A DNA stretch of 64,000 bases, taken from positions 1 through 64,000 of the forward strand of contig DUCO01000046.1 of NCBI GenBank assembly GCA_012959765.1, read 5' to 3'. Numbering within the stretch: position 1 is the stretch's first letter; each line of letters starts with the position of its first letter. Positions 38,033 to 41,796 of the stretch are shown here, one piece after another. The translations under genes were made by a program, and so were the position numbers. The notes beneath the pieces were generated by a model. It worked only from the letters and a program-made list of their open reading frames with translations. It was not told the origin of the DNA and ran no database searches. Source of the stretch: Dehalococcoidia bacterium (lineage in GTDB: Bacteria; Chloroflexota; Dehalococcoidia; Lucifugimonadales; Lucifugimonadaceae).

Positions 38033-39073
38033 ATGTACGTCGGAACACAGGTGGGCGCACGGAACGATTCAGACTTTGAACAGTGGGCGCAACTTGGAGT
38101 TGTGAACGTCTGTTCCGACCCTCCGGGTGACGCACACTCCTGGACGAAGGACGATCTGGCCCGCCATAAGGACAAGTTGAATTCCTACGGCATCACGCTC
38201 GACATGGTGCAGATTCCGCTGTCGTCGACGGTGCTCGACAAATCGCAGTCACCGAACGTCATGCTCGGCAAAAGCCCCGAGCGTGACCGTGAAATCGAAT
38301 CTATACAGAACATTATCCGCATGTGTGGCGAAGTCGGCATTCCAGCGGTCAAGTACAACATGAACATCATCGGCATCCCGCGCTCCGAGCGTGAAGCAGG
38401 TCGAGGTGGTGCCTCGGCATCCACGTTCCGCTGGGCGAAGATGAACCAGAACGACCCCGCAACCATCGCTGGTGAAGTGAGTGTCGACGAATTCTGGGAA
38501 CGGATCGATTACTTCCTCGAACGGGCAGTACCCGTCGCCGACTCGGCGAAAGTCCGAATGGCGTGCCACCCGCACGATCCCTTCACCCCGGACGGCTACA
38601 TGGGTGTCACTCGGGTGCTTGGTACGATCGAAGGCATGAAGAAGTTCGTGATGATGCACGAGAGTGACTATCATGGCCTGAACTTCTGCCAGGGCACCGT
38701 GACCGAGATGCTCGATGATCCGGGCGCTGAGATCGCCGACGTTATTCGCTGGTTCGGTTCACGCAACAAGATTTTCAACGTGCACTTCCGCAACATTCGA
38801 GGTCACAAACTCGACTTCATGGAGTCGTTCCCGGACGAGGGTTCGATCGATTTCTCCGAGATCGTCAAGGTCTACCAGGAGGTCGGTTACAAGTACATGC
38901 TGATGCCGGATCACGTTCCGTGGATCAGTGGTGACGACCCGCAGGGTACGGCCTTTGCGTTCTGCTACGGATACATCTCAGCATTGCTACAGGGCATTGG
39001 CGAGCCTCGCAAGCAGGCGTGGGTAACCAAGGGACCCGGCGAGCACTCAACAGCGACGGTCCAAACAAAATAG
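38033..39073 (+). CDS. UxuA-like mannonate dehydratase family protein, copy 1
   Basis: A 346-residue TIM-barrel protein of the mannonate dehydratase/xylose isomerase-like group. The FNVHFRNIRGHK segment and the C-terminal YMLMPDHVPWISG block correspond to the metal-binding HFRN and DH motifs of UxuA, which dehydrates D-mannonate to 2-keto-3-deoxygluconate. Overall it is shorter than E. coli UxuA (about 394 residues), so it may act on another aldonate. It starts at ATG after GGAGG (38022-38026). A close paralogue lies 270 bp downstream. The C-terminal tail GEHSTATVQTK is unique to this copy. Confidence 0.85.
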   Translation: MYVGTQVGARNDSDFEQWAQLGVVNVCSDPPGDAHSWTKDDLARHKDKLNSYGITLDMVQIPLSSTVLDKSQSPNVMLGKSPERDREIESIQNIIRMCGEVGIPAVKYNMNIIGIPRSEREAGRGGASASTFRWAKMNQNDPATIAGEVSVDEFWERIDYFLERAVPVADSAKVRMACHPHDPFTPDGYMGVTRVLGTIEGMKKFVMMHESDYHGLNFCQGTVTEMLDDPGAEIADVIRWFGSRNKIFNVHFRNIRGHKLDFMESFPDEGSIDFSEIVKVYQEVGYKYMLMPDHVPWISGDDPQGTAFAFCYGYISALLQGIGEPRKQAWVTKGPGEHSTATVQTK

Positions 39074-39343: not shown

Positions 39344-40351
39344 ATGCACGTTGGAACACAGGTAGGCGCCAGAAACGACGCTGACTTTGAACAGTGGGCG
39401 CAGCTTGGTGTGGTGAACATCTGCGCTGACCTGCCAGGGAATCCGCATGACTGGACGAAAGACGCACTATCTCGACATCGTGACAAGATTAATTCGTACG
39501 GCGTCGAACTCGACATGGTGCAGCTGCCGCTAGCATCGTCTACGGTCGAAAATTCAGCATCACCAAACATCATGCTCGGCAAAAGCCCTGAACGAGATCG
39601 AGAAATCGAGTCGATTCAGAACCTGATTAGAATCTGTGCTGAAGTTGGCATTCCAGCGGTCAAGTACAACATGTGCATCGTTGGCGATCCTCGAACCGAG
39701 CGAGAAATGGGTCGTGGCGGCTCTTCGGTGTCCGCGTTCAGGTGGTCGAAGGCCGATCAAGATGCACCTCTCGGTCTCGCTGGCGAAGTTCCTGCCGATC
39801 TATTCTGGGAGCGTATCGACTACTTTCTAGAGCGGGCGATCCCGGCAGCCGAGTCGGAAAAAGTGCGAATGGCACTCCACCCCCACGATCCCTACATCCC
39901 AGATGGCTGGATGGGCGTCGACACCGTTCTTGGCACAGTCGAGGGAATGAAGAAGTTCGTTCAGATGCATGAGAGCCCCTATCACGGTCTGAACTTCTGC
40001 CAGGGCACGGTCACCGAGATGCTCGATGACCCGAACGCTGAACTGCCCGACGTGATCCGCTGGTTCGGAAGTCGAGACAAGATTTTCAACGTTCACTTCC
40101 GCAATATTCGCGGTCACAAGCTCGACTTCAAAGAGACGTTTCCGGATGAAGGCAGTATCGACTTCTCCGAGATCGTCAAGGTGTACCAGGAGGTCGGATA
40201 CAAGTACATGCTGATGCCCGATCACGTTCCCTGGATCAGTGGTGACGACCCTTTGGGAACCGCGTTTGCGTACTGCTACGGCTACATTTCCGCGCTGTTG
40301 CAGGGCATAGGCGAACCACGCAAACAGCCCTGGGTCACGAAGGGTCCGTAG
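39344..40351 (+). CDS. UxuA-like mannonate dehydratase family protein, copy 2
   Basis: 335 residues, strongly similar to copy 1 from the first residue (MHVGTQVGARNDADFEQW) to KGP at the end. The SFDI-VKVYQEVGYKYML stretch and metal motifs are identical in both. Differences cluster in the middle (IVGDPRTERE; SAFRWSKADQDAP), which may alter substrate choice. It is the product of a tandem duplication that is old enough to have diverged. A phosphotransferase gene follows 20 bp later in the same direction. With the ManD-like gene at 42322-43620 this makes a small sugar-acid region. Confidence 0.85.
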   Translation: MHVGTQVGARNDADFEQWAQLGVVNICADLPGNPHDWTKDALSRHRDKINSYGVELDMVQLPLASSTVENSASPNIMLGKSPERDREIESIQNLIRICAEVGIPAVKYNMCIVGDPRTEREMGRGGSSVSAFRWSKADQDAPLGLAGEVPADLFWERIDYFLERAIPAAESEKVRMALHPHDPYIPDGWMGVDTVLGTVEGMKKFVQMHESPYHGLNFCQGTVTEMLDDPNAELPDVIRWFGSRDKIFNVHFRNIRGHKLDFKETFPDEGSIDFSEIVKVYQEVGYKYMLMPDHVPWISGDDPLGTAFAYCYGYISALLQGIGEPRKQPWVTKGP

Positions 40352-40371: not shown

Positions 40372-41247
40372 ATGAGCACATCGCCTGAAGTATTCGTTGA
40401 AAAACTGTTAGCAGCGGATTTCGAAATCGAAACATGGAGTGTGCTCGGTGTCGGCCAGAACAGCATCGCAATTCTCGCCAACGATGAGTGGGTTTTCCGT
40501 GTTCCACTGCATTCCGGAGCTGCCGATTCATTTGCAGCGGAAGTCGTTGTACTCCGAGCCGTTCAAGGTCGGCTACCGGTACTGACCCCCGACCCGGAGA
40601 TAGTTGTACAGATTCCCGGCGTTGAATGGCCCGTGATGGCGTACCGGACTATCGCTGGACAGCCGTTGGAGCGCGAGCAAATCGACTCGCTCGACACCGT
40701 TGCGGTAAATCGACTTGGCAGGGATCTGGGTCGATTCATGAACACGCTTCATGGCACGCCGGTTTCGCAGTTCAACCGTTCAGTAGTTCCTGACTACGAC
40801 AATCAACAGCAGTGGGATCGCCTAATCGCCGACGCCCGAAACTATCTGAAACCTCGGGTTGTTTCATCGATTTGGAACCGGTTGAATCGAAAACTCGGCA
40901 AATCCATAGCCAAAATCAACCGATTTGAGTTCAAATCCGTCCTGCGTCACGGCGATTTAGGTTTTGGGAATTTCCTGTTCGATCGGCAGTCGCACTTGAC
41001 TGGAGTGATCGATTTCGGCAGCGCAGGGTTTGGAGATCCCGCTGTCGATGTCGCAGGGCTTATTGCAACAACTGTACCGGGTGAGTTGCTCATCGAAAAG
41101 GTGCGCCCTACATATCCGGATATTGACGATCTGCTCGATCGGGCCCTCATCTATCGTGAGACCTTCGCACTGCAACACGCGCTTTTAGGGGCGAAGGGCG
41201 ACGATGAGATCGCTATCAAAGAGGGACTGGACCGTTATCTTGCTTGA
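40372..41247 (+). CDS. aminoglycoside-phosphotransferase-fold kinase
   Basis: A 291-residue APH/choline-kinase-like protein. The catalytic loop RHGDLGFGNFLFD (Asp within HGD, Asn seven residues later) and the metal-binding VIDFGSAGFGDP are both present. The N-terminal lobe has the usual nucleotide-binding beta strands with GVGQNSIAILA. The family includes drug-modifying kinases and many metabolic small-molecule kinases (homoserine, methylthioribose, sugar). The setting beside sugar-acid genes suggests a metabolic kinase. The substrate cannot be told. Confidence 0.85.
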   Translation: MSTSPEVFVEKLLAADFEIETWSVLGVGQNSIAILANDEWVFRVPLHSGAADSFAAEVVVLRAVQGRLPVLTPDPEIVVQIPGVEWPVMAYRTIAGQPLEREQIDSLDTVAVNRLGRDLGRFMNTLHGTPVSQFNRSVVPDYDNQQQWDRLIADARNYLKPRVVSSIWNRLNRKLGKSIAKINRFEFKSVLRHGDLGFGNFLFDRQSHLTGVIDFGSAGFGDPAVDVAGLIATTVPGELLIEKVRPTYPDIDDLLDRALIYRETFALQHALLGAKGDDEIAIKEGLDRYLA

Positions 41248-41295
41248 TCGAAAGTGTAGGCTGGTTCAACTAAGTTTGACTCAGGAGAATAATCG

Positions 41296-41796
41296 TTGAG
41301 CGAGAACACCGAGATAGACCCGATCGCATACCGTTCGCATGTGCGCATTGAGCGCGTAAAAGGCCCGATTCGACGAGCATTTATACCGGCGCACGATGGC
41401 CCCGTGATGCTCGGAGTTCACTCGGAAGTCGCTGAGCACTACGGAGTCGATAACAACGTAGTCGACCCGTACACAACCACTCTCGACTACGTGATCGCTG
41501 CTGCAGCCGGGTGAATGACCGGAACATTTGGCGGTGCCCTTGAGGCCCGCGGGATTCCGGCTGGCGATGGCTTTCTGTACTCAGAATCAGAAGGTCAGCT
41601 GGAAAAAGAGAACAACGTTCTCGTCATAAAGCGAATTCACGTTACGTATCACCTGAACGTCGAAAAGGCACTCTACGCCGTTAAAGAAGCGGCCATTCAG
41701 CGGGCGTTTGATCTGCACCCCGACTCATGCCCGGTGTACAGAAGCATCTACACCAGCATCGACATAACAAAAGAGCTTGATATGGCGGAGATATAG
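41296..41796 (+). CDS. OsmC-family protein with in-frame TGA at the peroxidatic Cys (probable selenoprotein)
   Basis: The start is TTG 41296 with AGGAG 8 nt upstream. Codons 1-72 match the N-terminal half of OsmC-like proteins (VMLGVHSEVAEHYGV, TTLDYVIAAAAG). Codon 73 is TGA (41512-41514). The frame then continues without shift as MTGTFGGALEARGI and so on, to the second conserved cysteine C145 in SCPVYRS and a normal stop at 41796. In the family the sequence after AAAG is the peroxidatic Cys, so TGA replaces exactly that codon. OsmC/Ohr proteins reduce hydroperoxides using this Cys and the resolving Cys. Sec-containing OsmC-like proteins have been reported in marine metagenomes, as I recall. 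The alternative is a chance TGC-to-TGA nonsense mutation. Confidence 0.75.
41531..41550 (+). promoter_or_regulatory. candidate SECIS-like stem after the TGA
   Basis: Sixteen bases after the TGA, GCGG-T-GCC pairs with GGC-CCGC around the loop CTTGA. This gives 7 bp with one bulged U on the 5' side. Distance and the bulged U recall bacterial SECIS elements such as the one in fdhF. The loop G is at position four rather than in the first two positions, so the match is partial. The stem is also inside conserved coding sequence and may be incidental. Confidence 0.4.

Follow-up and report, generated by a model that had tools for sequence, protein, structure and literature searches.

Does the single in-frame TGA in an OsmC-like gene of a SAR202-group Dehalococcoidia bacterium end a broken reading frame, or does it encode selenocysteine (Sec) at the reactive site of an intact enzyme? 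The gene lies at 41296–41796 on the (+) strand of the window (i.e., the whole stretch of DNA analyzed, 64,000 nt of contig DUCO01000046.1). It spans 166 codons, from a TTG start that is preceded, 8 nt upstream, by AGGAG (41283–41287; by its sequence a likely ribosome-binding site) to a TAG stop (41794–41796), and the frame contains one internal stop, TGA at 41512–41514 (codon 73). The sequence-only reading had described a single frame with a TTG start, a Shine-Dalgarno sequence, a lone TGA at codon 73 and an intact Cys145, and each of these elements was confirmed in the sequence. The read-through protein matched Pfam family PF02566 (OsmC) over residues 60–158 (37.5 bits; E = 3.3e-9; cut-off 27.5), which places the TGA inside the OsmC domain. 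We consider it highly probable that the product is an OsmC-superfamily selenoprotein, for which UGA73 would be decoded as Sec by means of SelB, tRNA-Sec and a hairpin, with Sec73 as the predicted peroxidatic residue and Cys145 as the predicted resolving residue. Mechanical ORF finding, in comparison, returned only a 93-aa ORF that begins with the ATG at 41515, right behind the TGA. This is probably how automatic annotation would misread the gene, and related genes have probably been annotated as shorter ORFs as well.

To establish what stands at codon 73 elsewhere, we analyzed homologues at several taxonomic depths. In the order sample, a homologue was present in 13 of 147 genomes, each with one TGA that aligned to codon 73 (13/13), at identities extending down to ~33%; a chance stop at this codon is therefore excluded. 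A profile search of 400 genomes of the phylum matched 44, including 35 with the TGA form and one each with Cys (G519), Trp (G445) and a broken copy (G264). The other six gave weak matches (≤31 bits), which we took for other OsmC proteins, with the sequence of one of them (G531) inspected. A scan of genome contigs yielded 27 loci, of which five lie in Rokubacteria MAGs and another in a MAG labelled Bacillota. A plasmid search gave no match. When the loci of the order, phylum and genome-contig searches were pooled, a recognisable motif was present in 66 distinct sequences, of which 64 have TGA at codon 73, one TGC and one TGG. Five of the 82 loci gave no motif match: two are partial (L058 and L059), one is broken (L110), one is another OsmC protein (L111), and the fifth (L074; motif ULAGT) was missed by the pattern and is a genuine TGA member, extra to the 64 counted. 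Sister genomes, to which the sequence-only reading had looked for Cys or Sec at this position, thus carried TGA there, and a natural Cys form (L101) has its Cys at exactly this codon.

The same TGA occurs in a cultured isolate of the same genus, Candidatus Lucifugimonas marina JH1073 (CP046147.1, our G086). Since this is a closed PacBio genome, assembly error is ruled out as the explanation of the TGA family, which we refer to as lineage A. The Sec form of lineage A was also observed in the Rokubacteria MAGs and in the one labelled Bacillota (L060, L064 and L066–L069), which may reflect transfer of the gene from one phylum to another or, alternatively, binning errors.

These comparisons bear on three readings in which no Sec is made. 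That the TGA is a real stop, in a pseudogene or through a sequence error, would agree with the single base change that separates TGA from TGC, TGT and TGG and with the start of the 93-aa ORF right behind it. However, TGA stands at this codon in 64 of 66 distinct sequences, the closed isolate genome among them, and the protein is conserved on both sides of it; pseudogene formation and sequencing error were rejected for the family on the basis of this conservation, and for the window gene we regard a real stop as extremely improbable. Termination at the TGA followed by restart at the neighbouring ATG, giving two polypeptides, is suggested by the ATG that forms the next codon in the window and in near relatives. 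Yet the next codon specifies Leu in 24 of 63 TGA sequences (LTF group, n = 5; LTL group, n = 19), where the 63 are those that remain after L109, with a frameshift behind its TGA, is omitted from the hairpin, folding and residue counts. Such a split would also lose the catalytic residue, and L101, with Cys at the site, is encoded as a single chain. We regard restart as very improbable.

The third reading, in which TGA specifies Trp or another residue through a changed genetic code or a suppressor, draws on the two copies without TGA. The Trp copy (L100, in G445) has TGG at the site and would fit a Trp-reading TGA, but it lacks an N-terminal frame in line with that of the other members and, for this reason, looks like a decaying copy. 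The adjacent upstream gene (40372–41247), moreover, stops at TGA, which is thus an ordinary stop elsewhere in the window, and the residue aligned in the superfamily is Cys, both in L101 and in other OsmC proteins. We therefore rate a changed code as highly unlikely. The Cys copy (L101, in G519) has TGC at the site, an open frame and matches at 150 of 153 profile positions; it falls within the Sec clade of the tree, where its own placement is moderately supported (81/81 and 97/37). Because of the open frame and the position inside the Sec clade, it reads as a probable Sec-to-Cys change. Both non-TGA genomes, G519 and G445, still possess selA.

Next, we explored whether the genome could supply Sec. 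The sequence-only reading had named selA, selB, selC and selD as the genes to look for, and all four are present in the window's own genome (assembly of 2.63 Mb in 49 contigs, estimated 92% complete). Specifically, we found selA at C40:56909-58249 (511 bits; cut-off 267.9), selB on contig C36 (319.9 bits; cut-off 242.25), selD at C46:97712-98638 (371 bits; cut-off 125) and tRNA-Sec on contig C25 (score of 66.4 against a gathering threshold of 47), with anticodon TCA according to ARAGORN. The selD gene (L025) lies on the same contig as the window and itself has one in-frame TGA. In the phylum sample, selA exceeded its cut-off in 321 of the 400 genomes and, as judged per genome from E-values, in 34 of the 35 TGA-form genomes versus 287 of the 365 others (one-sided Fisher test, p = 0.003). 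The corresponding figures in the order sample were 12 of 13 TGA-form genomes versus 128 of 147 genomes overall, and co-occurrence at this level says little, since so many genomes of the order have selA. The two TGA-form genomes in which no selA exceeded the cut-off were G241 in the phylum sample and G035 (81% complete) in the order sample.

Bacterial UGA decoding as Sec would also involve an RNA hairpin just downstream. In the window, a SECIS-like stem of 7 bp occupies 41531–41550 on the (+) strand, with a bulged U at 41535 and the loop CUUGA at 41539–41543, starting 24 nt after the TGA; when the 48 nt from the TGA onward are folded, it forms part of the minimum-energy structure. Most relatives show a G+C-rich stem whose loop has 5 nt (U-G-N-N-N) and begins 25 nt downstream of the TGA, and in the window's group the register of the hairpin is moved by one, with a bulged base. 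A complete stem was present in 57 of the 63 TGA sequences, the window's among them (42 in the regular register and 15 in two bulged forms; 6 had none), compared with 11.5 expected under synonymous randomisation with the pooled codon use of the family, an excess to be taken as a guide only because the three registers were defined after the sequences had been seen and the sequences are related. Both non-TGA copies (Cys, L101; Trp, L100) lack the complete stem.

The clearest signal is covariation across codons. In 46 of 63 sequences, base 3 of the conserved Ala codon 81 can pair with base 2 of the codon three positions on, compared with an average of 31.4 for shuffled controls and no more than 42 in any of 500 shuffles. 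The encoded residue changes along with the pairing base, and the pairs include GCG with GCG (Ala; 30 cases), GCC with GGG (Gly; 13), GCA with GTG (Val; 1) and GCG with GTG (Val; 1), and the 17 sequences unpaired at this position in the regular register are mostly bulged forms. Conservation of the hairpin exceeds what coding for the protein would require, and in lineage A the hairpin appears to dictate the choice of amino acids downstream of the TGA.

In bacteria, SECIS elements usually carry a G as the first or second nucleotide of the apical loop. The 42 regular-register relatives have this G at position 2, whereas the window's CUUGA has its G at position 4; the remark, made from the sequence alone, that this loop falls short of the usual bacterial rule was right. 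The energy of the window's hairpin is unremarkable, since 28 of 300 synonymous controls reach the same stability, and for L033 the number was 157 of 300. Across 65 sequences, including the Cys and Trp copies, the mean folding z-score was −1.49 after the TGA, two comparison segments from these genes gave −0.51 and −0.60, and energies in the lowest 5% were found in 20 of 65 versus 10 of 65 and 8 of 65. The folding energy of a single sequence is weak evidence. The bulged-U stem that had been proposed at 41531–41550 is present and its counterparts in relatives are conserved, but its own energy, taken alone, is not significant.

Conservation of the TGA, the Cys counterpart, the hairpin and the sel genes together give the original view, that Sec insertion is likelier here than a chance stop, more support than the letters of the window alone could provide, with Sec itself predicted from the sequence. 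We regard the finding as real and confirmed and the selenoprotein reading as very likely. Sec at the reactive site of the enzyme is, very probably, the usual form of the lineage-A OsmC-like family.

What would such a protein do? The proposed sequence of events is as follows: SelB and tRNA-Sec would decode UGA codon 73 as Sec, helped by the hairpin just downstream; Sec73, in the place that the peroxidatic Cys takes in OsmC and Ohr proteins, would reduce a peroxide or a similar oxidant, its selenolate becoming a selenenic acid; Cys145 would resolve this intermediate as a selenenylsulfide; and a cellular thiol would then re-reduce the Sec73–Cys145 bond. Both redox positions of this putative cycle are conserved. 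Sec73 and Cys145 are invariant columns in the alignments; Cys145 (TGC at 41728–41730), the probable resolving Cys, sits in a CPV motif and is invariant in both alignments A1 and A2. The second-Cys motif is present in 63 of 65 rows, and the two exceptions (L069 and L108) are pieces that end ahead of it. Asp64 (41485–41487), nine residues ahead of Sec73, is conserved as Asp throughout the family (65 of 65 sequences), compared with Glu or Asp at the same distance, by eye, in other OsmC proteins of the order. Ohr proteins have a catalytic Glu and Arg close to the peroxidatic Cys. Asp64 may have a catalytic role, and Arg26 is invariant in alignment A2. Most probably, the protein would act as an OsmC-type thiol peroxidase that depends on Sec; this role is predicted from homology, and Sec insertion, catalytic cycle and substrate are all putative.

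A selenoprotein of this fold need not be a peroxidase. Members of the OsmC superfamily are diverse, and the protein could serve in selenium or thiol transfer, as a disulfide reductase or in detoxifying another electrophile. No neighbour gene is common to the clades of the family (27 loci plus the window; ORFs of ≥100 codons), and the sole structure match is weak (E = 0.0031) and labelled a hypothetical protein, both of which would leave room for such functions. On the other side, both redox positions are kept as in OsmC and Ohr peroxidases, including the second-Cys motif, and we consider a non-peroxidase role possible but rather unlikely. A conserved operon was dropped as a clue to function, since the neighbours differ between clades. 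Those common to near relatives are, by eye, two sugar-isomerase-like proteins and a mandelate-racemase-type enzyme. In the window, the genes at 38033–39073 and 39344–40351, upstream of the selenoprotein gene, are adjacent and similar, i.e., a tandem paralogue pair that resembles, by eye, sugar isomerases or mannonate dehydratases.

Selenoproteins of the OsmC type have been described before, and we examined whether the window gene belongs with them. In the parts of the sources drawn on here, OsmC-like selenoproteins are listed with 3 sequences and the motif UXXT in the Sargasso Sea study of 2005 (PMC1088965) and, as the table row reads, with 5 sequences and UxxT in the GOS study of 2008 (PMC2398784); a 2022 review names OsmC once, as UxxT (PMC9312934). 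The known UxxT OsmC-like selenoprotein (NCBIfam NF041052, OsmC_like_Se) shares with the window protein the superfamily (PF02566), Sec at the peroxidatic Cys position and a bacterial hairpin downstream. The motifs differ: the window has U-M-T-G-T and the family U-[ML]-[TYF]-G-T (63 sequences), as opposed to UxxT. NF041052 (cut-off 95 bits) gave no match to the window protein at E-values up to 10 and reached 22.0 and 18.3 bits in two lineage-A relatives, compared with 143–167 bits in three proteins of the same order that we assign to lineage C (motif mostly ULLT). It weakly touched 20 of the 25 members of alignment A2 (best E = 1e-5), as would be expected within one superfamily. In a 70-row tree, lineage A (99/99) and lineage C (100/98) form separate clades; the program warns of long branches meeting at A, and the deep branch order is therefore unsure. 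From the UXXT motif, we infer that NF041052 and lineage C correspond to the Sargasso Sea OsmC family, whose original sequence is AACY01145085.

The peroxiredoxins OsmC (TIGR03562), Ohr (TIGR03561) and SACOL1771 (TIGR03563) belong to the same superfamily and have their two redox residues likewise placed, with Cys where the window family is predicted to have Sec. Their NCBIfam cut-offs were not reached (20 of 85.8 and 17.6 of 166.15 bits), and Ohr (TIGR03561) matched one of 25 members at E = 0.038. The only solved structure matched by the profile was Ta0195 (PDB 2onf; E = 0.0031; 20.5 bits), a Cys protein recorded as hypothetical whose Cys aligns to Sec73; the match is weak.

The statement in the sequence-only reading that Sec-containing OsmC-like proteins occur in marine metagenomes was correct as to their existence, but the window gene is not one of them, as UxxT/NF041052 is a different subfamily. 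In the part considered, a 2026 inventory (PMC13188914) has a single OsmC-like selenoprotein, with the motif UxxT and the only mention of OsmC in the main text; Sec motifs that differ are assigned there to subfamilies of their own. By that practice, lineage A is, as predicted from its sequences, a new subfamily of OsmC selenoproteins outside the listed UxxT family. Among the titles and abstract openings surveyed, we recognised no description of a U-[ML]-[TYF]-G-T OsmC subfamily, and the main text of the JH1073 isolate paper (PMC10444878) contains no word starting with "selen" or "OsmC". Lineage A is unusual in that its members normally carry Sec and only exceptionally Cys. Most selenoproteins of the Sargasso Sea, in the portion of that study used here, are by contrast sporadic beside widespread Cys forms (PMC1088965). 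Because a cultured relative with a closed genome has the gene, the selenoprotein prediction is directly testable.

Further TGA-bearing OsmC sequences were found in the order, 20 of which were inspected among the matches listed (14 of lineage B, 5 of lineage C and 1 of lineage D). We consider it likely that Chloroflexota use Sec in the OsmC fold in no fewer than four separate lineages, at the peroxidatic position in lineages A, B and C and at the resolving position in lineage D, with lineage A usually carrying Sec and a hairpin that appears to steer its residues. If this is true, lineages A–D would form a natural series in which the contribution of Sec could be compared position by position in a peroxidase.

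Lineage D (L159 and L165–L173, from Chloroflexota) consists of OsmC/Ohr-like proteins in which TGA takes the place of the second Cys, the resolving one, while the first is retained. Its motif is SKUPLYKAV or, more widely, xxUPLYKAV or UPLYRxV, and the sequence right behind the TGA is very similar throughout. TGA was present in 23 of the 27 phylum genomes with a match of ≥60 bits, and in nine of the ten sequences read it stood at the resolving-Cys codon, while L164 has Cys. Lineage B (L142–L153, L158 and L161) is of the type ALGTUTAMTLLLYARRKGW, with UTxMT and similar motifs and Sec at the first Cys. The three members tested against NF041052 scored 32–45 bits, under the cut-off of 95, and Sec and Cys forms are interleaved in the 70-row tree, with 6 changes. 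The window's genome also contains a lineage-B-like OsmC with Cys (L163; C49:16423-16527), whose frame enters, by eye, transposase- or integrase-like sequence.
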